Shown: positions 46,962 to 62,702 of the stretch, piece after piece | How positions within the stretch are numbered: the stretch's first letter is position 1 | How the letters are laid out: the number at the start of each line of letters is the position of its first letter | Notes under the pieces: model-generated | Seen by the model: the letters and a program-made list of their open reading frames with translations, nothing else | The model's database searches: none | Told to the model about the DNA's origin: nothing | Position numbers and translations under genes: made by a program | Assembly: GCF_003363435.1 (NCBI RefSeq) | Contig: NZ_QRCT01000050.1 | Location: 248,001 to 312,000, forward strand | Length of the DNA: 64,000 nt | Reading direction: 5' to 3' | DNA from: Anaerosacchariphilus polymeriproducens | GTDB lineage: Bacteria; Bacillota; Clostridia; Lachnospirales; Lachnospiraceae

Positions 46962-46971
46962 GTATTTTGGA

Positions 46972-47835: not shown

Positions 47836-47894
47836 ATTATTTACCTCCTAATAAATGATATATATTTAGTGCCAATCTAAAGGAGAGATCAGCA

Positions 47895-48776
47895 ATGATA
47901 CCATATGTTTCTTTTAAAAGTACAGACAAAAGTGCGATAGCTTTAGAAGTATTCCATACTATGGAATCTGTTCCTGCCCATCGTCATACTTTTCAAGAAT
48001 TTGTTCTGATTACGAAAGGTTCTTGTATTCACAAATATAAAGATATTTCTATGCCTCTGATACCGGGTGACGTATTTCTTATTCCACCGCATCAGGAGCA
48101 TGCTTATTTAATAGAAACTCCCGTCAGCATGTACAATTGTCAATTTTATCCCGAGCAGATTGCTGATTGGTGGGATGGACAATTCGGCGGCTTACTTAAT
48201 AATTTGACAGAACCGAAAGAGCAGGCTCCTATCTACCAGGCTGATTTAAATCGACAGCACATTATTCATTTATCTGTTCCTGATGCTAAGCAGGTTCAGA
48301 AAATGTTGGAAACGATGCGTAATGAGCAAATAGAGCAGGGTTTTGCTTTTCAGCAAGTAAAACAAGATTATTTAAACTTAATATTAATCATTATTTCACG
48401 TGCCAGATTGCGTCAATTCGCTGATTCTAAAGATCTTGAAAGTCCACGCCGGGATATTATTACAGATTGCCAAAGATTTATTGAGAATAATTTGGCGGAA
48501 CATATTGATTTTACTGAATATGCACGTATTCATAATATTAGCCCGGGATATTTCAGATCTGTTTTTAAAACGGAAACAGGGCTGACTCCAGTTGAATATC
48601 TTAATCGTCTGCGGATTGTCCGTGCCATAGAATTTTTGAAAGATGAAACGTTATCTATGAGTGATGTATCATCAGCCGTAGGGATTTATGATGCTAATTA
48701 TTTTTCCCGTTTGTTTCGAAAAATAATCGGCTATTCACCGCGTGAATTCCGAAATCAGGCTCATAGTGAAATTTAA
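47895..48776 (+). CDS. AraC family transcriptional regulator
   Basis: A 293-residue regulator. The N-terminal cupin sensor domain has PAHRHTFQEFVLITKG and PGDVFLIPPHQEHAY, typical of sugar-responsive AraC proteins. The C-terminal part carries two helix-turn-helix motifs (YARIHNISPGYFRSVFKTETG and DVSSAVGIYDANYFSRLFRK). It is divergent from the sugar isomerase gene and likely controls it in response to a carbohydrate. It is cargo of element 1. Confidence 0.88.
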   Translation: MIPYVSFKSTDKSAIALEVFHTMESVPAHRHTFQEFVLITKGSCIHKYKDISMPLIPGDVFLIPPHQEHAYLIETPVSMYNCQFYPEQIADWWDGQFGGLLNNLTEPKEQAPIYQADLNRQHIIHLSVPDAKQVQKMLETMRNEQIEQGFAFQQVKQDYLNLILIIISRARLRQFADSKDLESPRRDIITDCQRFIENNLAEHIDFTEYARIHNISPGYFRSVFKTETGLTPVEYLNRLRIVRAIEFLKDETLSMSDVSSAVGIYDANYFSRLFRKIIGYSPREFRNQAHSEI

Positions 48777-48899
48777 TTTTTCAAAAGATTTTCTATGTTG
48801 GATTCAATATATCATAAAAAGATTTTTACTACTAGAAGAAAACAAATAGATATTAGCACAAAACGCATATGAAAAGAAAAAACTCTGCATTTGGACAAT

Positions 48900-48927
48900 C
48901 TCCTTTTAAATAAGATGTAAAAAGGAG
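48900..48927 (+). promoter_or_regulatory. hairpin that can mask the ribosome site of the 46-residue ORF
   Basis: CTCCTTTT (48900-48907) is perfectly complementary to AAAAGGAG (48920-48927), which contains the Shine-Dalgarno sequence of the ORF starting at 48937. Its opening could control that ORF and the recombinase after it. Confidence 0.55.
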
Positions 48928-48936
48928 GTTGAATGA

Positions 48937-49077
48937 ATGAAAAATAAGAAAGAAAAAAGAAATGATCAAACCACTTATATAATAGAAAGGGAATATCTGG
49001 GTAAATATTCTGTAGAGGAATTTGTAAAGAGAGTGATTAAGAGTCACATCAATTTCCCGAAATCAGATTGTCATTAG
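48937..49077 (+). CDS. 46-residue companion protein of serine recombinase 1
   Basis: A 46-residue basic ORF with AAAAGGAGG upstream, ending 31 bases before the recombinase start. Its core YLGKYSVEEFVKRVIKSH aligns with YRNKFTTEEFIQKIVKSH in the ORF at 53063-53200, which sits in the same place before recombinase 2. Conservation of a short protein in this position suggests a recombinase partner, such as a directionality factor or regulator. It contains a conserved C-terminal KSHxN motif. Confidence 0.7.
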   Translation: MKNKKEKRNDQTTYIIEREYLGKYSVEEFVKRVIKSHINFPKSDCH

Positions 49078-49108
49078 ATAAAAACTCTTTATTATAAAGG
49101 TGATTCAT

Positions 49109-50704
49109 TTGGAAAAGGTAGAATATATAAAAAAAGTTCATACGGCATTGTATATGCGGATATCCCGGGAAGACGGAGACAAGGATGAAAGTGACAGTAT
49201 AACGAACCAAAGAAAGTTGCTTAGAAATTATATAAAGGATAAAGAAAATTTTGTTTTATATGATGAATATCTTGATGATGGGTATTCAGGAACTAATTTT
49301 GAAAGGCCTGATTTTAAACGTATGCTTAATGATATTGAAGAGGGCCGGATCAACTGTGTAATCGTGAAAGACTTGTCACGGTTTGGAAGGGATTATATAG
49401 ATACAGGTTTTTTTTTAGAAAGGTATTTTGCAGACAAAGAGATTCGTTTCATTGCTGTCAATGATAATTTTGATAGTTCTAAAGATGATGGTGGGTTACT
49501 GATTCCGTTTAAAAATATATTTAATGCCCAATATGCCAAAGATATTTCTACTAAGGTTCAGACCGCTTTTAAAGCAAAACAAAGGGCCGGTGAGTTTATA
49601 GGGGCATTTCCCAGTTATGGTTATAAAAAATCTCCACATGACCATCATAAGCTTATTATTGATGAGTATGCAGCGTCTGTAGTAAGAAGAATTTTTCAAT
49701 TATATATTGAAGGAAATGGGAAAATAGCAATTGCAAAAATATTGAATCAAGAAGGTATATTATGTCCTTCAGCATATAAAAAGGCTGAAGGATTTCATTA
49801 TTCTAATTGTAAAAAGCTGGTTTCCACCAGTTATTGGACGTATTCCACAATTAATTATATATTAAAAAATGAAATGTATATTGGGAATATGGTTCAGGGA
49901 AAGACAAAGCGGAGAATGAAAGGGAAGGCAAATCCGGTTCATGCAAAGGACTGGATAATCGTAGAAAATACCCATGATTCTATTATTGATGTCGACATAT
50001 GGAATAAAGTACAAAGTTTAATAAAAAAAGAAGTGAAACAATTTGATATGGAACGTAATGTTAGTATATTTGCTGGTTTTTTAAAATGTGGTGATTGTGG
50101 CCGGGCTTTGGGAAAAAAATTACCTTATGTGAAACCTGGCATAAATAGAGATTCCAATTGTATGAAAGGGGTATCTTATGTATGCTCCACTTATACTAAA
50201 TATGGGAAGACAAATTGTACGCCCCATCGTATTAGTCATGATTTATTAGAGCAGATATTATTAGAGGATTTCAATAAGATGATATCCTCTTTTACAAATT
50301 TACAACAAATTGCTGATAAAATACAGAATCAAGTGTCGGAAAAAATATATGGATCAGAAGCTGAAAAGAGGAAAATAGATTTAGAATTATCTAAAGTAAA
50401 GAAATTAAAAAAAGAAGTATATGAAGATTATAAAGAAGAATTATTAACGAAAGAAGAATATTTATCTTATCGAAAAGATTATGAAGAAAAAGAAGAACAT
50501 CTAGTTAAGAAGAAAGAATATTTGGCTGGCAAGGCAGAAAAAACTAAAAATAAAAATATCAATAGCCCATGGGTAAATGAATTAATACGTAATAATAAAA
50601 TTACAGAACTTGACAGAGAATTAATTATCGATATGATTGATAAGATATTTGTGTATGAAGGAAATCGGATTAAGATTATCTACAATTTTTCATTGGAAAT
50701 ATAG
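49109..50704 (+). CDS. large serine recombinase 1 (TndX/TnpX-like)
   Basis: TTG 49109 is the best start (AAAGGTGAT upstream); GTG 49100 lacks a ribosome site. The 531-residue protein has the resolvase catalytic domain with nucleophile Ser19 (LYMRIS), and SRFGRDYIDTG with the catalytic Arg. A recombinase DNA-binding domain, a zinc ribbon (CGDCG ... YVCSTYTKYGKTNC) and a Lys/Glu-rich coiled coil (about 420-480) follow. The end lies 38 bases from the right junction of element 1, typical of an integrase near its att site. It should catalyse integration and excision through a 2-bp staggered exchange. Confidence 0.93.
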   Translation: MEKVEYIKKVHTALYMRISREDGDKDESDSITNQRKLLRNYIKDKENFVLYDEYLDDGYSGTNFERPDFKRMLNDIEEGRINCVIVKDLSRFGRDYIDTGFFLERYFADKEIRFIAVNDNFDSSKDDGGLLIPFKNIFNAQYAKDISTKVQTAFKAKQRAGEFIGAFPSYGYKKSPHDHHKLIIDEYAASVVRRIFQLYIEGNGKIAIAKILNQEGILCPSAYKKAEGFHYSNCKKLVSTSYWTYSTINYILKNEMYIGNMVQGKTKRRMKGKANPVHAKDWIIVENTHDSIIDVDIWNKVQSLIKKEVKQFDMERNVSIFAGFLKCGDCGRALGKKLPYVKPGINRDSNCMKGVSYVCSTYTKYGKTNCTPHRISHDLLEQILLEDFNKMISSFTNLQQIADKIQNQVSEKIYGSEAEKRKIDLELSKVKKLKKEVYEDYKEELLTKEEYLSYRKDYEEKEEHLVKKKEYLAGKAEKTKNKNINSPWVNELIRNNKITELDRELIIDMIDKIFVYEGNRIKIIYNFSLEI

Positions 50705-50719
50705 AAAAATAACTATAAC

Positions 50720-50753
50720 TTTTGCACATTTTTTATGCACCCTGGGGAGCATG
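50720..50753 (+). other. middle attachment junction (element 1 right end / element 2 left end)
   Basis: CCCTGGGGAGCATG (50740s) joins the right end of element 1 to the left end of element 2. TGGGGAGCATG (50743-50753) is identical to the left junction, and CCCTGGGG recurs at 54905. TTTTGCACA (50720-50728) is the inverted partner of the left-end TGTGCAAAA. Confidence 0.7.
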
Positions 50754-50799
50754 AAAAAAGCGGTAAATTGAATAGAAAAATGATGGAAAAATCCTCCCA

Positions 50800-50828
50800 T
50801 TGAACAAAAAAATGGTTTAGTATATAAT
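50800..50828 (+). promoter_or_regulatory. sigma-A-type promoter of the sigI/rsgI-like operon
   Basis: TTGAAC (50800-50805), a 17-base spacer and a perfect TATAAT (50823-50828), 46 bases before the sigma-factor ATG. Confidence 0.72.
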
Positions 50829-50874
50829 AATGACAGAATATATTAGAGCATATTGCTGAAAGGAGGATAAGATT

Positions 50875-51588
50875 ATGAGAGATTTAGATCTTTTAATCGT
50901 CGATTCTCAAAAAAATTCTGAATTGTTAGAGCAAATAATAAAACAAAATGAGTTTTTTATTATAAAGTGTGCATCTGCAGTAACACAAAAATATGTAACC
51001 AAAAGTGATGATGAATGGTCCATTGCTGTTATGGCTTTTGCAGAATCTACCAATAAATACAATTTAAATAAAGGTAGTTTTCTTAAATTTTCTGAATTAG
51101 TAATTCGACGAAGATTGATAGATTTTTTAAGAGAACAAAGAAGACATAGTAAAGAAATTGTTGTTGATCCGATTGTCTTTGACACGGAAACGACGGAAGA
51201 TGACACGGAAAATGCAATTCATAACGAAGTGTCAAAGAACATTTTACAAAAAAATGATGATTCCATTCGATTGGAAATAAGTGCCGTAAATGAGGTGTTT
51301 CAAAATTATGGTTTTACCTTTTTTGATTTGACAAGCTGTTCACCTCAAGCTCAAAAGACCAAATCAACCTGTGCTAAGGCAGTCAATTTTCTATTATCTC
51401 ATCCGGTTATGATTTATGAATTAAGAAAGACGAAACTACTTCCCATAAAAATAATTCAAAAAAATATGAATGTACCCCGAAAATTATTAGAACGTCATCG
51501 AAAATATATAATAGCAGCAGTAGAAATACTATCCGGAGAGTATCCTCTACTGGCTGAATATTTACGATTCATCAGAGAGGAGATGTAG
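50875..51588 (+). CDS. SigI-like RNA polymerase sigma factor
   Basis: A 237-residue sigma-70 family protein of the SigI group. Region 2 is represented by DEWSIAVMAFAESTNKYNLNKGSFLKFSELVIRRRLIDFLREQRR, containing the -10 recognition helix. The C-terminal SigI-type domain has CTKAVNFLLSHPVMIYELRKTKLLPIKIIQK-like residues (about 165-200). SigI factors are held at the membrane by RsgI and respond to heat or extracellular polysaccharides. The RsgI-like gene starts 3 bases after the stop. Being cargo of element 2 is unusual. Confidence 0.85.
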   Translation: MRDLDLLIVDSQKNSELLEQIIKQNEFFIIKCASAVTQKYVTKSDDEWSIAVMAFAESTNKYNLNKGSFLKFSELVIRRRLIDFLREQRRHSKEIVVDPIVFDTETTEDDTENAIHNEVSKNILQKNDDSIRLEISAVNEVFQNYGFTFFDLTSCSPQAQKTKSTCAKAVNFLLSHPVMIYELRKTKLLPIKIIQKNMNVPRKLLERHRKYIIAAVEILSGEYPLLAEYLRFIREEM

Positions 51589-51590
51589 TT

Positions 51591-52931
51591 ATGAAATCAG
51601 TTGTGGTTGAAATTAAAGATGAATATGCAGCCGTACTATCTGATGATGGCAGTATTGTAAAAATCAAAAATAAAAATTATAGCATGGGAGATGAAATTGT
51701 TATGAAAAATAAAAAGTTACATATTTCTAAAAAACTTGCTTTAAGTGTTGCTTCAATAGTTTTATTTTTACTCGTAGGAGCTACAGGGTCGTGGGCATAT
51801 TATTCACCTTATTCTTATGTAAGTCTGGATGTCAATCCGTCAATTCAGTATACAATTAATCGTTTTGGCCGTGTTATTAAGATTGAGTCTGTGAATGACG
51901 ATGGACAAGTAGTTCTGGATAATATTGAAGATTTAAATAATATGTCAATTGAAGATGCTATCAGCAAAACTATTGAAGAAATTAAAGAAGAAGGTTATTT
52001 TACAGAGGATACATCAACTACTGAAACAAATTCTGATCAAAATACAACTACTGATAATAAAACAGATGAGTTAACAGATGATGCTGAAACACTAGATGGT
52101 GGTATTGTAATTACGGTATCAAATGAAAATGACGAAACATCAGAGGAGTTAGTGGAAGAACTTCAAGATAAGATAGAAGAAATTGTTGAAAATATAGTTG
52201 AAGAAGAAGTGGAAGTAGAAGTATCAAGTGTAGGTTTTGAACGTGTAAAAAAAGCAAGAGAGATGGGTGTTACACCTGGCAAATTGAATCTTGTTGAAAA
52301 GTTAATTGCTAGTTCATCTAATCCGGACGATATAGTTTTGGAAGAATGGTTAACCAAACCGGTAAAAGAAATTATGAAAGAAATTCAAAGTAATAAAAAA
52401 GCTTACTTGTCAGAGGAAGATGAAACAGAAGACGAAAAAGAAGACGAAACAGAAGACGAAACAGAAGACGAAACAGAAGACGAAAAAGAAGACGAAAAAG
52501 AAGACGAAAAAGACGAAGATGAAAAAGACGAAGATGAAAAAGACGAAAATGAAGACGAAAAAGATGAAGACGTAGACGATGAAGACAAATCTCCACAAAC
52601 ATCTAAAGATATAAATGCGGAACAACAAAAAGCGCAAGAGAAAGCAAAAAAGGCACAGGAAAAAGCGCAAGAGAAAGCAAAAAAAGCACAGGAAAATGCG
52701 CAGGAGAAAGCAAAAAAAGAACAAGAAAGAGCGAAAGAAAAAGCGAAAAAGGAACAAGAAAAAGCGAAAGAAAAAGCTGAAAAGGAACAAGAAAAAGCGA
52801 GAGAAAGAGCTGAAAAGGAACAAGAAAAAGCGAGAGAAAGAGCTGAAAAAGAACAAGAAAGAGCCCAAGAAAGAGCTGAAAGAGAACAAGAAAATAGGGA
52901 CGATAATTCTGAAGACGATCAGGATGACTGA
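51591..52931 (+). CDS. RsgI-like anti-sigma factor with low-complexity tail
   Basis: A 446-residue membrane protein. The N-terminal anti-sigma domain (about 1-50, KSVVVEIKDEYAAVLSDDG) is typical of RsgI and binds SigI in the cytoplasm. One membrane helix (about 50-70) follows, then the extracellular YVSLDVNPSIQYTINRFGRV domain. Instead of a carbohydrate-binding module, the C-terminus is an acidic Glu/Asp/Lys/Thr repeat (about 275-345) and a long Lys/Gln/Ala/Glu helical repeat (about 345-435). The latter is predicted to form a coiled coil, perhaps spanning the cell wall. Confidence 0.85.
   Translation: MKSVVVEIKDEYAAVLSDDGSIVKIKNKNYSMGDEIVMKNKKLHISKKLALSVASIVLFLLVGATGSWAYYSPYSYVSLDVNPSIQYTINRFGRVIKIESVNDDGQVVLDNIEDLNNMSIEDAISKTIEEIKEEGYFTEDTSTTETNSDQNTTTDNKTDELTDDAETLDGGIVITVSNENDETSEELVEELQDKIEEIVENIVEEEVEVEVSSVGFERVKKAREMGVTPGKLNLVEKLIASSSNPDDIVLEEWLTKPVKEIMKEIQSNKKAYLSEEDETEDEKEDETEDETEDETEDEKEDEKEDEKDEDEKDEDEKDENEDEKDEDVDDEDKSPQTSKDINAEQQKAQEKAKKAQEKAQEKAKKAQENAQEKAKKEQERAKEKAKKEQEKAKEKAEKEQEKARERAEKEQEKARERAEKEQERAQERAEREQENRDDNSEDDQDD
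52422..52580 (+). repeat. acidic coding repeat in the RsgI-like gene
   Basis: Short units of GAAGACGAAACA and GAAGACGAAAAA are tandemly repeated, encoding E-D-E-T/E-D-E-K. Unit number may vary by slippage. Confidence 0.8.
52619..52900 (+). repeat. Lys/Gln/Glu/Ala coding repeat in the RsgI-like gene
   Basis: Tandem units encoding AQEKAKK-, EQEKAKE- and EQEKARERAEK-type repeats, predicted to form one long charged helix. Confidence 0.8.
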
Positions 52932-52965
52932 AAAGATTAAATTAATAAAAGTATATTTCATAAAA

Positions 52966-52995
52966 TAGCATTGTCTTATTTGGCAGTGCTATTTT
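52966..52995 (+). terminator. terminator after the RsgI-like gene
   Basis: TAGCATTG (52966-52973) pairs with CAGTGCTA (52984-52991, one G-T pair), followed by TTTT. Confidence 0.6.
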
Positions 52996-53062
52996 AAATT
53001 AAAAGTATATTTTTACAAAGTGATAAATAGTATAGCACAAAAGTAGTATTATTGAGGTATCG

Positions 53063-53200
53063 GTGAAAAAAAGAGGACGTAAAAAAATTCCAGTAGAGGA
53101 ATTAGTCAAAAAGTATAGTATAAAACGTACATATCGAAACAAGTTTACCACGGAAGAATTCATACAAAAAATAGTGAAATCACACGCCAATGAAGATTAA
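53063..53200 (+). CDS. 45-residue companion protein of serine recombinase 2
   Basis: This ORF starts at GTG 53063, with AGG upstream, and encodes a very basic N-terminus (KKRGRKKIPVEELVKKY) followed by the conserved FTTEEFIQKIVKSHAN block. It ends 22 bases before recombinase 2. The block is shared with the ORF before recombinase 1. The basic N-terminal half, which resembles an AT-hook-like or HTH start, suggests DNA binding. A directionality-factor role is inferred. Confidence 0.68.
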   Translation: MKKRGRKKIPVEELVKKYSIKRTYRNKFTTEEFIQKIVKSHANED

Positions 53201-53222
53201 ACAGGGAGTTGAGTGAGATTTA

Positions 53223-54866
53223 ATGAATAATACGGGGAGATTATTAAGGGGCAAAAAATTTGAAAAGAAAAGTGTTTATAAAACGGGAATTTATATTCGC
53301 CTTTCCAAGGATGATAAAGACAAGTATAAAGAGGAGTCTAATAGTATTATTAATCAAAGGGCTTTTCTAACAAAATATGTAGAAAATGAGGATGATCTGC
53401 ATTTAGTTAACTATTATATAGACGATGGAAAAACGGGGATGAACTTTGATAGAAGTGGTCTTAAGCAATTAGACAAAGATATTGATAAAGGGGTTATAGA
53501 TTGTATTATTGTAAAAGACCTTTCAAGATATGGGAGAGAATCGATAGAAACTGAGAAACGCTTACGTGATTTCAAGATTAAAGGGATAAGATTCATCTCT
53601 GTCAATGATTATTTTGATAGCATAAAAGATGATATAGATTTACTGATAAAAACAAAATTAATGTATAATAATCAATATTCTGAAAGTATTTCTTTAAATG
53701 TGTTTAATAATTTCAAAAATATGCAGGAAGATGGAAAATTTATTGGTGCTCATGCGTGTTATGGTTACAAAAAATCATTAGAAGATAAGCATAAACTTGA
53801 AATCGATGAGTATCCGGCATCTATCGTAAGAAGAATATTTAATATGTATACAAATGGTGAAGGGAAACAATCAATAGCAAACCAATTGAATACCGAAGGA
53901 GTGCTGTCACCGATAGCATATAAGCAAAGTATTGGAGAGCATTATCAAAATAGCCATAAAAATACTGGACATTGGACTTATTCATCAATACATAATATTC
54001 TGAACAATGAAATGTATATTGGAAATATGGTCCAAGGGAAAACGCAAAGGGAAGAACCTAGAGGAAAGGCCAAAATGGTTGAGAAGGATTATTGGATTCG
54101 AGTAGAAAGTACACATGAAGCGATCATAGAAAAATATATTTGGGAAAAAACACAGTTATTATTAAAAAAGACACAGAAAGAGTTTGACTTTAAAGTGAAA
54201 GAAAAAGCTCAAACTACAATGTTTTCAGGATTGCTAGAGTGTGGAGCATGTGGATGTTTCTTACAAAAATGTAATCATAATGGAGTCATTACATATAGTT
54301 GTGGAAATTGGAAAAGAAAAGGTTTAAAAGGATGTACATCTCACACCATACGTTTAGATGTGTTAGAGTATATTATTTTAAAGGATTTAAATTCAATGAT
54401 TCAAGCTGTAAAAGATATTAATTCTATAGTAACCAGGCTTCCAATATTGAATGAAAATATTTCAAGTATAGAACGTGATATAATATTAGCAAAAGAAGAT
54501 ATAAAAAAGTATCAAAGAAGAACTGAAAGGTTGAAAGATGAGTATTTCGATGTTCTTGATGAAGTGAAAGAACAGAATCAGATACGTTTCATTAAAGACG
54601 AATATATTAGTAATAAACTTCGATATGAAAAACAAATTTTTCAAGCTATGGAAAGGGAGTCAAGACTTCAAAAACTATTAGAAAAGCAGAGATTAAAAAG
54701 AGAATACAGCTTATGGATAAAAAAATTGTTACAAACAAAAAAAGTGGATGCTATTGATAGAGGGATACTAATTGATATGATTGAAAAGATAATTGTCCAT
54801 GAAGATAAAAACATTGAAATAGTGTACAATTTCTCAAACGACTCAGAGAAAGATAGGAAAAGCTAA
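53223..54866 (+). CDS. large serine recombinase 2 (TndX/TnpX-like)
   Basis: A 547-residue recombinase with nucleophile Ser28 (IYIRLS) and SRYGRESIETE carrying the catalytic Arg. The recombinase domain and a zinc ribbon (CGACGCFLQKC ... YSCGNWKRKGLKGC) precede a long coiled-coil insertion (about 400-480). It is homologous to recombinase 1 along its length (for example both have GxRF.SVND.FDS and NMVQGKT) but clearly diverged, so the two elements are related rather than recent copies. It sits next to the right end of element 2. Confidence 0.93.
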   Translation: MNNTGRLLRGKKFEKKSVYKTGIYIRLSKDDKDKYKEESNSIINQRAFLTKYVENEDDLHLVNYYIDDGKTGMNFDRSGLKQLDKDIDKGVIDCIIVKDLSRYGRESIETEKRLRDFKIKGIRFISVNDYFDSIKDDIDLLIKTKLMYNNQYSESISLNVFNNFKNMQEDGKFIGAHACYGYKKSLEDKHKLEIDEYPASIVRRIFNMYTNGEGKQSIANQLNTEGVLSPIAYKQSIGEHYQNSHKNTGHWTYSSIHNILNNEMYIGNMVQGKTQREEPRGKAKMVEKDYWIRVESTHEAIIEKYIWEKTQLLLKKTQKEFDFKVKEKAQTTMFSGLLECGACGCFLQKCNHNGVITYSCGNWKRKGLKGCTSHTIRLDVLEYIILKDLNSMIQAVKDINSIVTRLPILNENISSIERDIILAKEDIKKYQRRTERLKDEYFDVLDEVKEQNQIRFIKDEYISNKLRYEKQIFQAMERESRLQKLLEKQRLKREYSLWIKKLLQTKKVDAIDRGILIDMIEKIIVHEDKNIEIVYNFSNDSEKDRKS

Positions 54867-54891
54867 AGCATTGACTTTTAATTTTTTCACG

Positions 54892-54920
54892 CAATTTATT
54901 ATTTCCCTGGGGGAATGAAG
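54892..54920 (+). other. right attachment junction of element 2
   Basis: CCCTGGGGGAATGAAG joins the right end of element 2 (CCCTG) to the deacetylase continuation (GGG AAT GAA GAC). The TGGGG core at 54908-54912 matches the other two junctions. Confidence 0.75.
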
Positions 54921-55192
54921 ACACTCAAGAGATTTTAGACATTTTAAAAAGGAAGAATGTAAGGGTTACATTTTTCATGACCGGTGAATGGGTAGGTGAA
55001 TATCCCGAAGATGTAAAAGCAATTGCTAAGGCAGGTCATGATATTGGAAACCATAGTGAAAATCATAAACAGATGTCTCAGATAAGTGAAGAAAAATGTA
55101 AAAGGGAAATAATGGTCGCGCATAAGAGAGTAAAAGAGCTTTTGGGAACTGATATGTTTTTGTTTCGACCACCGAATTGTAATAGGGTATAA
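54910..55192 (+). pseudogene. PdaB-type polysaccharide deacetylase, middle piece (interrupted on both sides)
   Basis: From 54910 the frame reads GNEDTQEILDILKRKNVRVTFF, then GHDIGNHSENHKQM with the NodB metal-binding HSxxH, and FLFRPP. This continues exactly from DAAW at 43885. After FRPP (ends 55174) the expected YGxYN motif is missing: the frame reads NCNRV and stops at 55192 beside a third serine recombinase. The remaining C-terminal part is not in the window. It has no start codon of its own with a ribosome site; it is a gene segment, not an independent gene. Confidence 0.85.
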
Positions 55193-55195
55193 AAA

Positions 55196-56635
55196 TTAGG
55201 ATAAAAAATAAGAAACCTCAATTCTCTTATTTTGTTTATCAAAAACGATATCAGTAATAATTGATTTTATTGCTTTATTCTTTTCATTTCTGCTTGACAG
55301 TTCTGATGATACGATTTTATATACATTTTCTATCCTTCTATGCATTTCGGCATTATCAGTTACAGAAAAGTCCTTTTTTAAATTATCAATTTTACTTTGT
55401 ATTTCTTCTTTTTCCTTCATAATAATTAATTTGTTTTGTTTATATTCATCTAATGTGTCTATACCATTTCGATAAGCTTCTTTAATTCGCTCCTCTTTTT
55501 TAATACATTTTTTCAATGTATCATTAAGTACTTTAATTTCAAATGACTTATCTTCAATAATTAGATTGCTATATTCAAAATTTTTATTTTTGGTAGCATC
55601 AAGTAAACTATCTAAGACAGCTTGTTCTATCTGGGCAGCTCTTACATAATGTGATACATTACATTGATGCTTTTTGTATCCGCTACATTGAAAGGATGGA
55701 GTTTTACCACCATTAGATACTAGAGTACGGCCGCAAGAAGAACAACGTAACATTGAACTTAACCAATGTATTTGGCTTTCAGGCGGCAATGCTTTATATT
55801 TATATTCTCTAGTTAAGCGGTCTTTTGCCAAGTTAAATAGTTCTTCGGATATTATAGGTTCATGTGATCCTTTACGTATAATTACACCTTCAGTATCAAT
55901 TCTAGTTCTTTTGGATCTTTGTTCTAAAGGTAATCCCCACATAATATTTCCCATATAAATTGGGTTTCCTAGTATATATTTAATTGCTCTAGAAGTAAAT
56001 GGGTTACCATTTTTTGTTGTAATTTTAAGTGCATTCAATTCTTTAGCGATACCATAAAATGATTTACTATTATAAACATATCGTTCAAAAATTAGTCTAA
56101 CAAATTCTTTGTTTTCTTTATCAATAATTAATTTATCATTTTCTAAAATATAGCCAAATGGTGGTCTGGTTTGCATATTGCCACGTAATGCATTTTCTGT
56201 CATTCCACGTTTTACTTCACCAGATAGTCGTATGGAGTAATATTCATCCATCCATTCAATTATTCTTTCGATTAATGTGCCAAAAGGTCCGTCAATAAGT
56301 GGCTCTGATATACTTATCACTTCTATACCATTTTTCTTTAACAGAGATTTATAAACAATGCTTTCTTCTTGATTTCTAGCAAAGCGAGAATATTTCCATA
56401 CAAGAATCACATCAAATAAATGATTTTTTGATTTAGCCATTCCAATCATTTTTTGAAATTCCGGACGCTTTTCTGCGTACTTACCCGATATACCACTTTC
56501 AATAAAGATGTATTCATTGTCAATAATATAGTTATTTTTTTTTGCAAAGTCTGATAATAACCTTCTTTGAGCATCTGGTGACAACTCTTCCTGTTTATCT
56601 GTACTAACACGAATATATAGTGCTGCTATTTTCAT
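55196..56635 (-). CDS. serine recombinase/integrase 3
   Basis: A 479-residue large serine recombinase: nucleophile Ser11 (LYIRVSTDKQ), WKYSRFARNQEES with catalytic Arg, and TRPPFGYILEND at the start of the recombinase domain. A zinc ribbon (CSSCGRTLVSN ... FQCSGYKKHQC) and a coiled-coil segment follow. It is a different subfamily from recombinases 1 and 2. Its stop codon is about 20 bases from the deacetylase break, as expected for an integrase beside its att site. The repressor gene starts just upstream on the same strand. Confidence 0.93.
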   Translation of the reverse strand: MKIAALYIRVSTDKQEELSPDAQRRLLSDFAKKNNYIIDNEYIFIESGISGKYAEKRPEFQKMIGMAKSKNHLFDVILVWKYSRFARNQEESIVYKSLLKKNGIEVISISEPLIDGPFGTLIERIIEWMDEYYSIRLSGEVKRGMTENALRGNMQTRPPFGYILENDKLIIDKENKEFVRLIFERYVYNSKSFYGIAKELNALKITTKNGNPFTSRAIKYILGNPIYMGNIMWGLPLEQRSKRTRIDTEGVIIRKGSHEPIISEELFNLAKDRLTREYKYKALPPESQIHWLSSMLRCSSCGRTLVSNGGKTPSFQCSGYKKHQCNVSHYVRAAQIEQAVLDSLLDATKNKNFEYSNLIIEDKSFEIKVLNDTLKKCIKKEERIKEAYRNGIDTLDEYKQNKLIIMKEKEEIQSKIDNLKKDFSVTDNAEMHRRIENVYKIVSSELSSRNEKNKAIKSIITDIVFDKQNKRIEVSYFLS

Positions 56636-56638
56636 TAA

Positions 56639-57040
56639 TTACTCACCTTCTTTTTCTTTACAATATAATGGTATATATGTTAGTTCTTTAATTCTTTTTA
56701 CAGACTCTTCCATACCTTCTGAGTTTAACATATGAAAATGTGAAGTTAGTTCCATTAATAAATCGAATTCTTTTTTAGTAAGTTTATTAATTTCGCAATC
56801 ATATTTTTGGCTATATGATTGTTTTGAATCTTGCGCCGCATCATTCCAACCCATTAAAGACGCTGGAGTTGTTCTTAAAGCATTAGCTAAAGGTTCCAAT
56901 ATTGTAGTTGGTAAATTTTCAATTTCATCATTTTCATATCTATACACAGTTGCCCTATTTTTCCCTAAGATATCCGCTAGTTGATCTACAGACATATCTA
57001 AATCTTTTCTTCTTTGTTTAATTCTTTCTCCTATAGTCAT
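56639..57040 (-). CDS. CI-like XRE-family repressor
   Basis: The start at 57040 is chosen for GGAGGGAAAT before the ATG. The 133-residue product has an N-terminal helix-turn-helix (IGERIKQRRKDLDMSVDQLADILGK...) typical of phage repressors, then a short C-terminal part without a LexA-like peptidase motif. It is encoded just upstream of integrase 3 (3-base gap) and divergent from the Cro-like gene, across operators that it likely binds. Confidence 0.85.
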   Translation of the reverse strand: MTIGERIKQRRKDLDMSVDQLADILGKNRATVYRYENDEIENLPTTILEPLANALRTTPASLMGWNDAAQDSKQSYSQKYDCEINKLTKKEFDLLMELTSHFHMLNSEGMEESVKRIKELTYIPLYCKEKEGE

Positions 57041-57077
57041 TTTATTTCCCTCCATAAAAAATATAATAACATAAATG

Positions 57078-57092
57078 TCGCAATGTTGCAAC
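57078..57092. promoter_or_regulatory. operator-like site O1
   Basis: TCGCAATGTTGCAAC, a variant of the palindrome seen at the three sites downstream; it lies just upstream of the repressor start. Confidence 0.45.
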
Positions 57093-57119
57093 GGTTTAAA
57101 GCCTAATACAAAAAAATAA

Positions 57120-57134
57120 TCGCATATTATGCAA
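57120..57134. promoter_or_regulatory. operator-like site O2
   Basis: TCGCATATTATGCAA matches the TCGCATA...TGCGA palindrome with one changed half-site base and lies upstream of the Cro-like promoter. Confidence 0.6.
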
Positions 57135-57141
57135 AAATATG

Positions 57142-57170
57142 TTGACAGAATTATAATTCAGAGTTATTAT
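57142..57170 (+). promoter_or_regulatory. promoter of the Cro-like gene
   Basis: Perfect TTGACA (57142-57147), 17-base spacer, TATTAT (57165-57170); operators flank it on both sides. Confidence 0.8.
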
Positions 57171-57177
57171 TCAAGTG

Positions 57178-57192
57178 TCGCATATAGTGCGA
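57178..57192. promoter_or_regulatory. operator-like site O3
   Basis: TCGCATATAGTGCGA, a palindrome with one mismatch located at the expected transcription start. Confidence 0.65.
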
Positions 57193-57217
57193 ATAAAATG
57201 GAAAGGGGTTATTTAAT

Positions 57218-57436
57218 TTGGTAAATATTAATAAATTAAAAGGTAAGATAGTAGAACAAGGACTTACTGTGGAAAGACTTGCAAATATTATTAATATAGA
57301 CAAAAGCACGCTTTATAGAAAAATAAGTAATAGCGGAGAAACATTTACTATTAAAGAAGCTGACTTAATTTGTAAAGCATTAAAATTAACTTTTAGTGAG
57401 GTTAATGATATTTTTTTTAGTCAATATGTCGCATAA
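57218..57436 (+). CDS. Cro-like XRE-family DNA-binding protein
   Basis: A 72-residue protein from TTG 57218 behind AAGGGG, with a helix-turn-helix (GLTVERLANIINIDKSTLYRK) and the C-terminal KALKLTFSEVNDIFF common in small phage regulators. It is divergent from the CI-like gene. The fourth operator overlaps its stop codon. Confidence 0.78.
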   Translation: MVNINKLKGKIVEQGLTVERLANIINIDKSTLYRKISNSGETFTIKEADLICKALKLTFSEVNDIFFSQYVA

Positions 57437-57443
57437 TATGCGA
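57429..57443. promoter_or_regulatory. operator-like site O4
   Basis: TCGCATAATATGCGA, a perfect 15-bp palindrome covering the end of the Cro-like gene. Confidence 0.65.
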
Positions 57444-57502
57444 AAAAGTTTATAGTCAATTTGTACAATCAGTGTTGCATAAGTTTTACTGGGGGTGATT
57501 TG

Positions 57503-57667
57503 GTGAGAAAAAACGAATTGATTAGCTTTGTAAATTACATAGTAATAGGCGGTGAAAAAGTTTTAATGGATACCCTTAGTGAGAAAGAGAGGGAAGAAAT
57601 AGCTGTTAGATTAAATGATAAGGCAATGAAAGCTATTGGTTATATACGTTCAGATAAAACCGCCTAA
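57503..57667 (+). CDS. small hypothetical phage protein
   Basis: A 54-residue ORF from GTG 57503 behind GGGGGTGAT. It has a predicted helical region (DTLSEKEREEIAVRLNDKAMKAIGY). It resembles short proteins that often follow regulators in Clostridial prophages, but I cannot assign a function. Confidence 0.55.
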   Translation: MRKNELISFVNYIVIGGEKVLMDTLSEKEREEIAVRLNDKAMKAIGYIRSDKTA

Positions 57668-57834
57668 AGCGGTTAAGATGGACAAGTTTGATAAAAAAGG
57701 AGAGTAAAAGAAATTACAGCACAGTGAAATTATAGGTATGAAGTCGGAGGAGAATCTGATGTTTTGAAAAGTGTGGAAATTTTATTAAACAACGAAAAAA
57801 GTGGCCTGTCTATCACAAACCACAATTAATAGTT

Positions 57835-58098
57835 TTACAAATTCTCAATACTTACGACCGCAGAGGATTTATATATTTTATTTTCGTTTTCTAATAAGCG
57901 AAAAAAATCGCAACTACATATTAATTCTGTTACAGAAGGAATAAAACCAGCTGAAATATGATACCCAATTTTATAACTAGGTTGTTGTGAAGTAATATTT
58001 TCACTATTATGTATAAGTTGAGAAATTGGAGCAATACGTTGTCCTTCTTCAAGAACTAGCGTTTCATTATTAGAAAAAGTTATTTTAACTTGTTGCAT
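57835..58098 (-). CDS. hypothetical protein in element 3
   Basis: An 87-residue ORF starting at ATG 58098 with AAAGGAGAAT. It has no membrane segment or known motif. It begins MQQVKITFSNNETLVL and is mostly beta-strand in pattern, with a GHIS/CDFF segment. It faces opposite to its neighbours, as accessory (moron-like) genes in prophages often do. Confidence 0.55.
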   Translation of the reverse strand: MQQVKITFSNNETLVLEEGQRIAPISQLIHNSENITSQQPSYKIGYHISAGFIPSVTELICSCDFFRLLENENKIYKSSAVVSIENL

Positions 58099-58394
58099 TA
58101 GTAATTCTCCTTTCTTTGTTATTTCAGCTCTGGCAAACTGATGCATAGATATAGTGAGAAAATACGTTCTCTATACAATATATTGTAGAGTCTTGAAAGA
58201 AAGATGTCAATATGCAAAAGGCAATATAAAAAATAAAACATTTCTCCCCAATCAACGTAATCTCAAATTCAAGTGTCATTTAATTGCCTTACCATGATTG
58301 GTGAGAATTAGAAAAGTCAATTGTGTGTAAAAGATTTCTAAAACATCTTGAGGAATCATAGCGGTATAGCACAAAACGAGAGGAGTGAAATCAA

Positions 58395-58613
58395 TTGAAA
58401 ACACTAGGAAACATATCACTAGGCATAGGTGCCACATTAAGTCTATCAGCGTTCATATTGATCTTAGCCAAGCGTGAAGCAACATATTTAGAAGTAATCA
58501 TTGCCTTAACTGGTTCGTTTATAGGAATTATTGGACAAGCGGTAGAAACCAGAAGGCGGATAAGGCGTGTAAAAGGCAGTATCAATCATTATGATAATCG
58601 CCATGATTCTTAG
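58395..58613 (+). CDS. small two-helix membrane protein
   Basis: A 72-residue protein from TTG 58395 behind AGGAG. Two hydrophobic helices (LGIGATLSLSAFILILAKR and VIIALTGSFIGIIGQAV) flank a short loop, and the tail is basic. The shape is holin-like, but the position among early genes argues for another role. Confidence 0.55.
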   Translation: MKTLGNISLGIGATLSLSAFILILAKREATYLEVIIALTGSFIGIIGQAVETRRRIRRVKGSINHYDNRHDS

Positions 58614-58685
58614 AATGTGTATTCATAATTGTATAGCATAGATAACAGAAAATGCAGTTGGATCACGATTATTAGGAGGGAACTG

Positions 58686-58892
58686 ATGCAAGAGAGAAGA
58701 ACACGAAAGAATCCGGGCAGCAGAGGCTATAGAGTACCAGGGCACACAGCAGGAGAGTTTCGGATTGTGGGCATGGAAAGAGGAGGGGATGTTACATATT
58801 TCGGAGACATGGTAGACGAGCTTGGACAGTACGAGGATCTCGGTACCATAAAAGAACTGCAAGAGCTAAAAGAAAGATATGGAAAAAAATAG
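58686..58892 (+). CDS. small hypothetical phage protein
   Basis: A 68-residue ORF with AGGAGGG before ATG 58686. It is charged, has no membrane segment, and contains a VDELGQYEDLGTIKELQELKE helix of the kind common in small early phage proteins. The stop overlaps a strong hairpin. Confidence 0.55.
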   Translation: MQERRTRKNPGSRGYRVPGHTAGEFRIVGMERGGDVTYFGDMVDELGQYEDLGTIKELQELKERYGKK

Positions 58893-58918
58893 CACATTCA
58901 ACTGCAAATTGAATGTGC
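58892..58918. other. perfect 10-bp hairpin upstream of the Rep-like gene
   Basis: GCACATTCAA (58892-58901) and TTGAATGTGC (58909-58918) with a 7-base loop and no T run. It may be a terminator, or part of a replication origin used by the Rep-like protein encoded 130 bases downstream. Confidence 0.55.
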
Positions 58919-58986
58919 AGATGACTTTCGCCACCATAGTTAATAAACCAATTAAAGTATAGCATCTATGGGGCAAAAAGTCAACA

Positions 58987-59010
58987 AAATGGGGATTTTT
59001 TGTCCCATTT
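58987..59010. other. second hairpin upstream of the Rep-like gene
   Basis: AAATGGG (58987-58993) pairs with CCCATTT (59004-59010) around a T-rich loop. Confidence 0.4.
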
Positions 59011-59047
59011 AAGACTTGATTAGAATATTAACTTTAGGAGATAGCAG

Positions 59048-59788
59048 ATGCCGTACGAGAGATTGACATACAGATTGAAAAGAACGATCGAAGTAGAAGA
59101 AAAACATAAGGGAAGATATGGAGCACCGGGAGAAAAAAGAGAGAAAAAGAAAAAGCCTACCTCAGAGCAGATAGAAAAACAAAATCAATGGATGGCAGAG
59201 AAGAAGTTAAGAAGAATATTAAATGCCAATTTTGACCCAGATGATCTTCATATCACACTGACCTATAAAAAAGAGGAACGTCTTCCAGAAATGGAAGCGA
59301 AAAAGGAGCTGAACAAGTTTCTGATCAAAATGCGCAAGGAATACAAGAAATTGGACCTGCAGTTTAAATACATCGTGGCTACGGAGTACTTAAATACAGC
59401 AATTCATCATCATTTAATTATTCAAAATATCACCCAGGGGATGATATCGACCCCTAAACTGGTAAAGAAACATTGGAGCAGAGGAAGACCGAAATTCGTT
59501 ATGTTGGATGATACCGGAGACTATAAGGACTTAGCAGAATATTTGATCAAAGAAACATCCAAGACATTTCGGGAATCGAAAGGAATGAAGCAAAGGTATT
59601 CAAGGAGCAGAAACCTGATCGTACCGGAACCGGAACGAAAACTTATGAAAGCAAGCGAATTCTTAAAGATACGTGAAAAGAAAGGCTACTACATAGATAA
59701 GAACAGCATCATTGAGGGAATCAATCCGGTGACAGGATTCAAGTACCGCCATTATACATACAGAAGGATGGAAAGGGAAGGTGGATAA
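59048..59788 (+). CDS. HUH-type Rep-like protein
   Basis: A 246-residue basic protein with motifs in Rep order: a hydrophobic strand HITLTYKKEE (about residue 77), HHHLIIQ with an HUH metal-binding pair (about 120), and YLIKETSK with a candidate catalytic Tyr followed by Lys (about 170). These match single-strand nicking endonucleases of rolling-circle replication. It is followed 3 bases later by an RNase H-like gene. TAGGAG precedes the ATG. Confidence 0.68.
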   Translation: MPYERLTYRLKRTIEVEEKHKGRYGAPGEKREKKKKPTSEQIEKQNQWMAEKKLRRILNANFDPDDLHITLTYKKEERLPEMEAKKELNKFLIKMRKEYKKLDLQFKYIVATEYLNTAIHHHLIIQNITQGMISTPKLVKKHWSRGRPKFVMLDDTGDYKDLAEYLIKETSKTFRESKGMKQRYSRSRNLIVPEPERKLMKASEFLKIREKKGYYIDKNSIIEGINPVTGFKYRHYTYRRMEREGG

Positions 59789-59790
59789 CG

Positions 59791-60243
59791 TTGTATGAGG
59801 TAAAGATTTTCATAGAGACAACAATAAAAGGTCCACGGATCCAAGAGGGATGGTATGCAGCTGTGGTGGAATATAAGAAAAAAAGTGGGGAAGTAGTGAC
59901 CCGAGAGATCTTTGAGCAGGAAAAAGAGACCACATATCATAGGACGACCCTGCTGGCCAGTATCAAAGCATTGAATTTACTGAATGCGGAGTGCTTTGTT
60001 GAGATACATACGGATTCCACGTTCATGATCAACAACGTAGAACATGGAAATGTGGATAAGTGGAAGGTTACAGGATGGGTGAACAGTAAAGGTGAGGAAG
60101 TGAAGAATAAGGAACTATGGCAGCAGTTGGCAGCGCACAGGAACCGGCATGATATTCAGTTCATAAAAGAAAGAAGAAACGAATATTCGGTCTGGATGCA
60201 CAATGAAATAAAGAGATTAATGGAGGATAGGAAACATGTATGA
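59791..60243 (+). CDS. RNase H-like protein with altered active site
   Basis: A 150-residue protein from TTG 59791 (GGAAGGTGG upstream). The fold is recognisable from HTDSTFMIN, KWKVTGW and VKNKELWQQL, which match RNase HI. Of the four acidic catalytic residues, the one in TDS is kept. The first position is Glu in IETTIK rather than Asp, and the second (NxxE in RNase HI) is RTTLL. The last (near NEYSVWMHNEI) is unclear. It may bind RNA-DNA hybrids without cleaving, or use a changed mechanism. It overlaps the next gene by 8 bases. Confidence 0.65.
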   Translation: MYEVKIFIETTIKGPRIQEGWYAAVVEYKKKSGEVVTREIFEQEKETTYHRTTLLASIKALNLLNAECFVEIHTDSTFMINNVEHGNVDKWKVTGWVNSKGEEVKNKELWQQLAAHRNRHDIQFIKERRNEYSVWMHNEIKRLMEDRKHV

Positions 60244-60706
60244 AGTATTTGGTGAATTTGATTCAGCAGAAGAAATGAATCGGGCGGCAGCAGGGCTATT
60301 AGAAGAAGGAGATACCAAAAATATATTGATTCTTGCAAAAGAAAATGGCATTGAAGAAGGAATCGCACAGGCTTATAACGCTGGAGCCATGGAGGAACTA
60401 ACGGATCCATTCATGGCAGCAGTCGGAAAGCTGACGGTAGAAAAAGAACAGGTGACCAATATGGGAAGCATGAAAGAGGTTTATTTTTCCTATTTGGTCA
60501 GCCAGTGCATGGAGGAAGGGTTTGCAAGAAAAGTAAGAAATAAGGGTAAAAGTTTTGATGACTGCTTGAAAAAGACTTATGAAAAGATTGAGGAAGAATG
60601 TAGTAAGTGGATGAAGGAAAATAACATACCAAGGCAGGGAATGGTGGGCTGTCCTATTCCCGATGAGGTCACTTATCAATGGGCAAAAGAATATTACGTA
60701 AGGTAG
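60236..60706 (+). CDS. PcfK-like protein
   Basis: A 156-residue protein. Its C-terminal half (MEEGFARKVRNKGKSFDDCLKK ... VTYQWAKEYY) matches the PcfK-like pattern of a helical core ending in an Ala-x-x-Tyr-Tyr motif. PcfK-like proteins are usually encoded directly before PcfJ, as here. This family is related in databases to the AcrIIA9 Cas9 inhibitors, but its own role is not known. It starts inside the 3' end of the RNase H-like gene. Confidence 0.7.
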   Translation: MYEVFGEFDSAEEMNRAAAGLLEEGDTKNILILAKENGIEEGIAQAYNAGAMEELTDPFMAAVGKLTVEKEQVTNMGSMKEVYFSYLVSQCMEEGFARKVRNKGKSFDDCLKKTYEKIEEECSKWMKENNIPRQGMVGCPIPDEVTYQWAKEYYVR

Positions 60707-60716
60707 GTGGCTGAAA

Positions 60717-62702
60717 ATGAAGAAAAAGAAGTTAAAGACCTTTAAAGTACTGAATGCAACAGATAAGATGAAGAACGTTGTAGAACAAGACAAAGGGTAC
60801 TTGATACAAAGATATGACCAAAGTGATACTTGGGAACCCAATTATCATTGGTTCATAAGAGTCGCATCAAGGAATTTAGATGGACAGGCAGTGATGCAGA
60901 TATTCTTGTATACAAGAGAAGATATGCTGGAAGGAAGAAGAGGTCCAAAGTATATGATCTATTTATCAAAAAAGGAGCAATCTTTTCTGACATACGAGCC
61001 GGCAATCGATAAATGGAGGACAGCCACCATAGATCACTTAGATTATGGGAAACACATCCTATACGGAGCAACGATAAAACACTGGATTGAGGAGAAAGAT
61101 GAAATAAAGATCTGTACGTATATAAACAATCAATATAAAACGGCTTATACATCAATCCGATTTTTCCAATGCAATACCAGGAGACAAAAAGAAATAGATT
61201 ACATAGATCACTATATGAACCAAGTGCCGGAACTTCCGAAACGTTTTGAAAGATGGCTGAATGACTATGCAATGATAAAAAGTAAATATATTCTTTATCA
61301 TTATGCAAAAAAGGTAACAGAAGGATTTTGTACCCATTGTGGGCAGACCGTACCGGTGGAAGCTCCAAAATACAATCAAACTGGAATTTGTCCCAATTGT
61401 AAAAGTAAGGTCACTTATAAGTCAATTAAAAAGGCAGGCCATATTGTAGACTGGGGGGCAGGAAGTATCATACAGAAAACGAAGGAAGGATATGTGGTCC
61501 GATATTTTGACATTAAAAAAGATTATGAAGATTACCAAAGACCAAAGTTACTTTATTGGGAAGGGATACGCACTGTTTATGATGAAGATTTTAGAAGAGA
61601 GCAGACCTTCGAATATACAAAATTCCATGGGACACAAATCATAAGGTGGTGCAAAAAGGATTATAACTCATGGAAGGAAAAGGTGATGGAAAAAAGATCA
61701 ATTGTATATGACAGGAATTTGAAACAGATTTTTAAAGGCAGCAGGATGCAGTACAGTGCATGGGAGCTATTCATAAGACAAAATAGGGACTATGAATTTT
61801 TCCCAAGTTATTATATGGAAGCGTACTTGGAACATCCCAGTTTAGAATATTTGGTCAAAATGGGATTGAATAAACTGGCAAGAGCTTTGATTGACAGGAG
61901 AACTATTGAGTATTTAGATTTAAAAGCAAAAAATCTAAAAACGATGTTAAGGCTTCCAAAAGATGAAAGAAACAAAATATGTAAGATGGATGTGACAAGT
62001 AGAGAATATGTCGTAACGGTGGAGGCAAATGAAATGGGAACTGTGTTGACACAAGAGCAGATCAGATTCTTTGCAGAAATCAGCAGGCATCATAATTTTC
62101 AAAGATATGTCAGATATACCACACCATATAAAATGATCAAATATATCAAAGAGCAAATGAAAGATGAGGACTTTGATGTGGGAGATTATCACGACTATTT
62201 AAAAATGGCAGCTCAGCTAGAGTATGACTTAAGAAATGAGTTTGTTATTTTCCCAAGACATTTTAAACAGGCACATGATGATGCGACAGAGGAATCGAAC
62301 CTCAGAAAAGAAGAGTTAGAACAGAAAAAAGAACACAACGACAATCAAATCATCAAAAAGCAGAGGGAACAGCTGGGAGCACTCTATGAAATCGAAACAG
62401 AAGATCTTTTGATTCGTATGCCGGAGAGTGCAACCGAAATAAGGCACGAGGGGCAGCAGTTACATCATTGTGTAGGAACTTATGTAAAAAGAGTAGTAGA
62501 AGGGAAGACCACCATACTCTTCATCCGAAAGAAGGCAGAACCGAAAAAGTCATATTACACCATGGAAGTTAGAGAGAATGAAATAATTCAAGTGCGGGGT
62601 TTGAATAATAAGGCTCCGTTGGATGATGTAAAAAGACTGGTAGAAAAATTTAAAAAAGAACGTCTGGAAAAGAATAAGGCAAAGGAAAGGAAGGCAAGTT
62701 AA
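60717..62702 (+). CDS. PcfJ-like protein
   Basis: A 661-residue protein. A zinc ribbon (FCTHCGQTV ... GICPNCKSK, about residues 203-230) is followed by a long helical middle. The C-terminal PcfJ domain has QLHHCVGTYVKRVVEGKTTILFIRKK with conserved His-His-Cys. PcfJ proteins occur in phage and conjugative elements next to PcfK; their biochemical role is unknown. The stop overlaps the next start by one base (TAATG). Confidence 0.8.
   Translation: MKKKKLKTFKVLNATDKMKNVVEQDKGYLIQRYDQSDTWEPNYHWFIRVASRNLDGQAVMQIFLYTREDMLEGRRGPKYMIYLSKKEQSFLTYEPAIDKWRTATIDHLDYGKHILYGATIKHWIEEKDEIKICTYINNQYKTAYTSIRFFQCNTRRQKEIDYIDHYMNQVPELPKRFERWLNDYAMIKSKYILYHYAKKVTEGFCTHCGQTVPVEAPKYNQTGICPNCKSKVTYKSIKKAGHIVDWGAGSIIQKTKEGYVVRYFDIKKDYEDYQRPKLLYWEGIRTVYDEDFRREQTFEYTKFHGTQIIRWCKKDYNSWKEKVMEKRSIVYDRNLKQIFKGSRMQYSAWELFIRQNRDYEFFPSYYMEAYLEHPSLEYLVKMGLNKLARALIDRRTIEYLDLKAKNLKTMLRLPKDERNKICKMDVTSREYVVTVEANEMGTVLTQEQIRFFAEISRHHNFQRYVRYTTPYKMIKYIKEQMKDEDFDVGDYHDYLKMAAQLEYDLRNEFVIFPRHFKQAHDDATEESNLRKEELEQKKEHNDNQIIKKQREQLGALYEIETEDLLIRMPESATEIRHEGQQLHHCVGTYVKRVVEGKTTILFIRKKAEPKKSYYTMEVRENEIIQVRGLNNKAPLDDVKRLVEKFKKERLEKNKAKERKAS

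Follow-up and report, generated by a model that had tools for sequence, protein, structure and literature searches.

Why does a gene for a PdaB-like spore deacetylase stand in three pieces, with serine-recombinase genes beside its breaks, and could the gene be put together again? The window (the whole stretch analysed, 64,000 nucleotides, C49:248001–312000) holds the first two pieces; contig C49 (415 kb) was read past it, up to position 399999, and all three pieces lie on one strand of this contig. An earlier note on this DNA had described one gene holding three serine-recombinase elements at two conserved-motif sites, and had taken this for either a strong integration hotspot or a layered excision system. 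We indeed find two elements, A1 and A2, at the codons for FDAAWG and a third, prophage B, at those for FRPP. By analogy with published systems, we consider it likely that the three serine-integrase elements interrupt the PdaB-like gene as skin-like elements, which would leave the mother-cell chromosome so that pdaB is restored. This reading builds on the in-frame rejoining, the recombinases, the palindromic A1 attP, the recurrence across genera, and purifying selection elsewhere.

The N-terminal piece (43667–43887, plus strand; tblastn with intact relatives) runs from a hydrophobic N-terminus, with an in-frame ATG at 43667 or 43712, to ...ALSFDAAWG at 43887. It ends at the core TGGGG (43883–43887), the attL of element A1, whose TG opens the Trp codon of FDAA-W-G. 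The middle piece (54908–55170, plus strand; best NCBIfam model TIGR02764, positions 16–104) reads WGNEDTQEIL...DMFLFRPP, and similarity to the family stops directly after FRPP, where the earlier note had placed the break. The core TTTCGACC (55163–55170) marks the left end of prophage B and has a second copy at contig 342861–342868. The deacetylase C-terminus expected beyond 64000 follows the right end of prophage B: the C-terminal piece (C49:342861–343292, plus strand; tblastn with relatives as queries) starts FRPPYGDYNN and reads FRPPYGDYNNQLLEVAEECKYYTIQWDVDSLDWKDYG... from contig position 342861.

Joining the flanks at TGGGG (43883/54908) and at TTTCGACC (55163/94861 in extended coordinates, the latter being contig 342861) yields one open frame of 285 aa from the ATG at 43712, that is to say, the breaks would allow removal of the inserts without loss of a letter. 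The rejoined protein matches TIGR02764, which carries the name ybaN/pdaB, from end to end (model 1–191 of 191) with 233.0 bits, slightly less than the curated cut-off (237.4) and more than any of the three intact relatives tested (229.7, 218.9, and 215.5 bits). TIGR02764 is the top model for all four proteins and covers 1–191 in each (2–191 in L018). Because the score stays below the cut-off, we call the gene PdaB-like, and its status as a sporulation gene rests on this best model. Since the pieces are collinear, lie on the same strand, cover the PdaB model 1–191, and rejoin in frame at both sites, a chance origin of the three-piece arrangement is, judged from the sequence, not credible. Two features of skin-like elements are present: removal of the elements would restore the open frame of a sporulation gene, and a large serine recombinase adjoins the att site.

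Element A1 (43883–50742, plus strand; 6.86 kb, 6860 bp; Pfam matches and att symmetry) encodes an acyltransferase, a HAD hydrolase, an AP-endonuclease-2-like protein, an AraC regulator, a 46-aa ORF, and a large serine recombinase of 534 aa (49100–50704, plus strand) with Resolvase, Recombinase, and Zn_ribbon_recom domains. The 46-aa ORF (48937–49077, plus strand), which is preceded by ATA-N17-CATATGAA, is a candidate recombination directionality factor on the basis of similar ORFs at other recombinase loci. Element A2 (50743–54907, plus strand; 4.17 kb, 4165 bp; domain and model matches) encodes a SigI-like sigma factor, an RsgI-like anti-sigma factor, a 45-aa ORF, and a large serine recombinase of 547 aa (53223–54866, plus strand; Pfam domains) that shares 44% identity with its A1 counterpart. 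The 45-aa ORF (53063–53200, plus strand) is likewise a candidate directionality factor, similar to that of A1 (E about 2e-7 among 133 small ORFs). The SigI/RsgI-like pair, the cargo of A2 (window 50875–52931), was not found at the other loci examined, and the six cargo proteins of the window match other loci solely via AraC-like regulators; therefore, the pair is not a conserved passenger at those loci. A search of the host genome found four PF07508 recombinases, three of which are at the split pdaB.

The repeat TGGGG occurs at 43883, 50743, and 54908. The copy at the A1/A2 junction (50743–50747, context CCCTGGGGAGCATG) has TGGGGAGCATG in common with the left junction and CCCTGGGG in common with the right one. 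We rebuilt attP from both ends of each element and scored the best palindrome centre against 2000 shuffles. The A1 attP pairs 18 of 24 positions with its centre exactly on the Trp-codon TG, which none of the 2000 shuffles equalled; that of prophage B is borderline (14/24, p = 0.06). The symmetry of the A2 attP is not significant (13/24, p = 0.27), so A2 may be unable to excise by itself; treated as a single element, A1 and A2 give 13/24 (p = 0.03), with the centre off by one base. Because the three left junctions have a common core and dinucleotide, A1 and A2 could leave singly or together. The layered excision suggested earlier, in which all three elements must leave before the gene can work, therefore stands in one part and is loosened in another: frame repair would need the removal of all inserted DNA, and the junctions would permit exactly that, but the two left elements could go in one step.

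Prophage B (55163–64000 in the window and on to contig 342860; 39.7 kb, 39698 bp) was characterised by scanning 20 of its proteins with PHROGs, which gave matches to an integrase, a repressor-like protein, the small and large terminase, portal, head protease, major head, neck, tail, tape measure, Dit, and endolysin. Insert B thus has the integrase, terminase, portal, capsid, tail, and lysis genes of a temperate siphovirus-type prophage and looks complete. Its serine integrase (55196–56635, minus strand; 479 aa; phrog_95 integrase, 5.4e-113) has Resolvase, Recombinase, and Zn-ribbon domains; this is the different integrase that had been seen close to the FRPP break, and its stop end lies 25 bases past the repeat 55163–55170. 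A DDLLNAG-repeat toxin-like gene lies at the right end of the prophage (C49 338772–340249; extended 90772–92249) and is followed, inside the prophage, by an ankyrin-repeat protein. A copy of the toxin-like gene, 86% identical over 1486 aligned bases, lies just 3' of pdaB (343894–345362; extended 95894–97362).

Prophage B gives rise to the alternative that survives best, namely, that the FDAAWG elements are developmental and that B is a recent ordinary lysogen, which blocks the gene unless induced. The genomes and viral contigs searched contain no second FRPP insertion in pdaB, so that this break is known solely from the present genome (G000); the full phage gene set and the absence from B of an identified candidate for a sporulation-linked directionality factor point the same way. 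Among 75 relatives of the B integrase on viral contigs, the only one that adjoins pdaB is the window's own record (flanks of at most 3 kb per side, often limited by the contig end), and the exact 29-base pattern of the reconstructed B attP had no match in viral contigs, as would be sought for a free phage. The join at FRPP is, however, in frame too, and the excision of an intact prophage at sporulation has a precedent in SPbeta (PMC4191935). We regard the recent-lysogen alternative as doubtful, and continue with the reading that all three elements are skin-like.

This reading gains from the recurrence of split pdaB genes. A PdaB query against 397 genomes of the family gave 17 truncated rows among the 150 matches listed (E to about 1e-62; counted by eye), and all 17, plus G166, were fetched for inspection. 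In 11 of the 17, both halves lie on one contig and strand (G279, G400, G122, G045, G240, G016, G288, G411, and G266; G348, with an insert of 48.4 kb; and G360, a single-contig 5.4-Mb genome whose 92-kb insert is bounded by halves that rejoin in frame). In G073, pdaB ends beside a recombinase at the end of a 5.1-kb contig. The queries used found neither the missing half nor a recombinase in G185, G330, G290, G139, and G176; two of these, G176 and G290, are also weak in a ribosomal S2 control, so these two truncations may be assembly breaks. In this control, 14 of 384 genomes had a best E weaker than 1e-90 (by eye), probably owing to fragmented matches. Two candidates were rejected: G166 as a split pdaB, which is a contig end, and G229 as an FRPP insertion, whose two matches share 19 bases in different frames and enclose no insert.

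Four split-pdaB genomes lie outside the 150 matches listed (G000, G042, G382, and G277), and in 16 genomes including G000, pdaB is either split or cut off next to a recombinase, mostly at FDAAWG or DSLDW. The hotspot proposed in the earlier note is borne out by this recurrence, and its interpretation as a whole is supported, in that both of its alternatives hold as far as sequence can show. The other break sites are FRPP, in G000 only, and one near residue 95 (L055). Three-piece genes occur in G000, G042 (two contigs), and G382 (three contigs), plus L099 (a Bacillota MAG). The further pdaB inserts range from about 1.5 to 12.7 kb. The elements of L059 (G266) and L069 (G277) at DSLDW, of 2.3–2.7 kb, consist of a serine recombinase and little more. 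The short inserts of L053 (G240) and L056 (G411), of about 1.5 and 1.7 kb, have no recognised recombinase; one contains a glutamate-cysteine ligase gene, and the other a gene for a ThrE exporter together with a small ORF that resembles a directionality factor. Since the queries found no recombinase in these two inserts, some of the interruptions may never be reversed or may depend on functions supplied in trans, and the two are possibly decayed elements that are excised in trans. In L114 (Butyribacter intestini TF01-11, LLKB01000006, 1751–7230, a stretch free of N runs), the N and C halves of pdaB face each other, the C half and a recombinase lie within a 5.2-kb segment, and inversion between two TGGGG sites would give an intact frame. 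This arrangement appears to be an invertible variant of the split pdaB.

At the other FDAAWG-site loci, the attP palindrome is centred on the Trp-codon TG in 11 of 12, with p ≤ 0.011 in 10 of those; the exceptions are L056, which is off the TG centre, and L054 (p = 0.12). Joining at TG gave a stop-free frame in each of the 12 FDAAWG loci, G000 among them, at which both pieces could be read; this count omits L103, which is cut by a contig end and is in frame by the core-finding script. Of the 14 other loci with two pieces on the same strand, nine had an in-frame motif join by that script; the five that had none were L048, L054, L055, L064, and L099. All of these five except L055, which is split near residue 95, rejoin in frame by TG alone.

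The recombinases themselves were followed through the named genomes by scanning with an alignment of ten of them, the best 80 of a larger number of loci being retained. Within the stretch examined, 20 of these best 80 loci contain pdaB pieces (L075 among them is a contig equal in length to one of G382). Among the other 60, the 3' flank was examined at 27 loci, and at 12 of these the recombinase adjoins an amidase gene starting at HGG. The missing amidase start, with the end DAGHG or DPGHG, was found by motif search on the same strand upstream of the recombinase in five of the 12 (L074, L076, L086, L102, and L105). Nine amidases were tested against CwlD (cut-off 221.55): six score 164–213 bits and start at profile position 5–7, two of these being from Thomasclavelia saccharogumia and Hominisplanchenecus faecis; the remaining three score 72–79 bits, all below the cut-off, and may be amidases other than CwlD. 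Thus, to judge from these flanks, recombinase relatives also split amidase genes at GHG, and these genes are CwlD-like in part. The frame after GHG reads ..LRK in L074, L076, L086, and L102 and VRR in L105, and resembles the ..NLR that follows several pdaB junctions, which suggests a single attP arm serving both pdaB and amidase targets. At L073 (11594–12139) and L088, recombinase relatives adjoin another conserved gene, possibly a third target; for the L073 copy, neither Pfam nor NCBIfam gave a match.

Serine integrases can use conserved coding sequence. The second alternative starts from this: the integrases use conserved motif codons as attB, pdaB is merely inactivated, and nothing is programmed. 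For a complete-looking prophage such as B, excision would in any case be expected during its own lytic cycle, and the two inserts that have no recognised recombinase fit such a pure hotspot. If the genes were dead, decay would be expected, and none is seen. The mean identity to 10 intact copies is 0.63–0.71 for 14 Lachnospiraceae-type split copies, compared with 0.61–0.69 for the intact copies among themselves (L022, listed as intact in the rate comparison, is the same split gene as L054 and lies outside this 10-member reference set); split copies from other families (L089, L092, and L098) have mean identities of 0.47–0.49. The dN/dS of the five computable split-split pairs is 0.017 (L047–L101), 0.048, 0.051, 0.056, and 0.127, values that come from split copies elsewhere than in G000 and include the time before the insertions; the remaining close pairs are saturated at synonymous sites. 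These rates indicate that the split pdaB copies in other genomes are under purifying selection. The stop-free rejoining of 12 of 12 loci and the targeting of both pdaB and CwlD-like genes, which points to sporulation genes, also stand against a pure hotspot.

A conserved small ORF and sigma-E-like promoters would be unexpected for dead genes as well. In 32 of 53 loci including that of A1, and hence in 31 of 52 other loci, a related small ORF is found no more than 500 bp before the recombinase (phmmer E ≤ 0.001); five pairs among the 53 recombinases have at least 90% DNA identity. Four promoter patterns were tried upstream of the 32 small ORFs. The sigma-E/K pattern ATA-N14-18-CATA..(.)T, fixed independently of the published Clostridioides difficile description, was the sole enriched one (11/32, 1.6 expected), whereas a sigma-K-like pattern occurred once (0.3 expected), sigma-G/F not at all, and sigma-A once (3.2 expected). 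The C. difficile sigma-E promoter is described as ATA at −35 and a CATATTAT-like −10 with a spacing of 16–18 (PMC3789822), and we refined the pattern from this description to ATA-N16-18-CATA. It occurs before 13 of 32 small ORFs (2.2 expected) and 11 of 28 pdaB genes (1.9 expected), with no count as high in 200 shuffles for either; among 31 neutral stretches it occurs once (1.5 expected). After removal of near-duplicates, the counts are 12/30 (1.9 expected) and 11/28 (1.8 expected), again with 0/200 shuffles for both. The looser sigma-K pattern AC-N15-17-CATA occurs before 8 of 32 small ORFs (2.6 expected; 2 of 200 shuffles reached this count) and 3 of 28 pdaB genes (2.3 expected). In G000, the sigma-E-like pattern precedes the A1 small ORF only; the A2 small ORF and pdaB have no match. 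In C. difficile, cwlD and three polysaccharide deacetylases are reported as sigma-E-controlled (PMC3789822), and SpoIIID is reported to bind upstream of B. subtilis ybaN (PMC517825). Taken together, we judge a pure hotspot to be unlikely, slightly more so than the recent-lysogen alternative. Misassembly that brought the pieces together or apart, which a draft genome (3.8 Mb, 50 contigs, 96% complete), an IMG/VR record identical to 53223–59635 that may be the same assembly and is therefore not independent proof of the junctions, and the weak S2 matches overlapping two pdaB truncations that lack a second half might suggest, is rejected as highly improbable on the recurrence of the same split sites in many other assemblies, one of them the single contig of G360, and is at odds with the three pieces on one contig and with the precise att repeats with palindromic arms.

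We thus return to the skin-like reading, in which we model the excision, the time at which it occurs, and the part played by the small ORFs on skin, SPbeta, and gin. The elements, integrated by their recombinases, would sit silent inside pdaB during growth, when the gene is not needed. During sporulation, the mother cell would make the small directionality factor from a sigma-E-type promoter; this factor would turn the recombinase reaction to excision, the elements would leave, and the intact pdaB frame would be rebuilt. The spore would retain the uncut copy, and the elements would be inherited; by the general logic of the published systems, the mother cell leaves no descendants, and it is through the spore that the element persists. 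The host CwlD-like amidase gene is uninterrupted (209.3 bits, below the cut-off). A second host match to the sigma-K model (246.7 bits) is probably sigma-E.

More broadly, and with somewhat less than even confidence, we propose that Lachnospiraceae-type gut bacteria and some relatives keep cortex genes (pdaB and cwlD-like) as DNA "exons", which are broken at conserved-motif codons and joined by several independent mother-cell serine recombinases. If so, one gene can need two or three separate excisions, or in one genome an inversion, before cortex completion. Were excision confirmed, part of the gut microbiota would commonly rearrange its genomes in the course of forming spores. Ordinary annotation would tend to call pdaB and cwlD broken or missing in such genomes. 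The recombinase family offers natural replicates for how a serine integrase picks conserved codons as attB, and could also show how a short protein sets the direction of an integrase.

Intervening elements have so far been described, in the sources cited here, as separate cases in sigK, spsM, spoVFB, gerE, and yabG. In the literature searched, that is, titles and abstract openings of the papers listed, with subscription journals mostly uncovered, we recognised no description of pdaB or cwlD as an insertion target. Compared with these cases, (i) skin in sigK of Bacillus subtilis and C. difficile is likewise a large-serine-recombinase element that splits a mother-cell sporulation gene, its excision rebuilds sigK, and in C. 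difficile a small factor under sigma-E and SpoIIID sets the direction (PMC5025042); here, the target is pdaB instead of sigK, three elements occupy two sites of one gene, and the host sigK is one open frame (216 aa, over the cut-off, its one reported stop being its own end). (ii) SPbeta in spsM of B. subtilis is, like B, an intact prophage within a spore gene, for whose excision at sporulation the recombinase SprA and the 58-aa factor SprB are reported as necessary and sufficient (PMC4191935), whereas prophage B has two further elements in its gene. (iii) gin in gerE of B. cereus ATCC10987 is a non-phage element in a sporulation gene, with three serine recombinases and a small extra factor, GirX; it is described as one 28.6-kb element at one site (PMC5595907), whereas here three elements at two sites have a recombinase each. 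(iv) yin in yabG of C. botulinum V73, which encodes a serine recombinase, and vfbin in spoVFB are prophage-like and also lie in sporulation genes of spore formers, the target genes being other ones and the insertions, as described, single (PMC10747680). The split pdaB is therefore set apart from the other skin-type cases by its target, by its three stacked elements, and by its recurrence at conserved codons.
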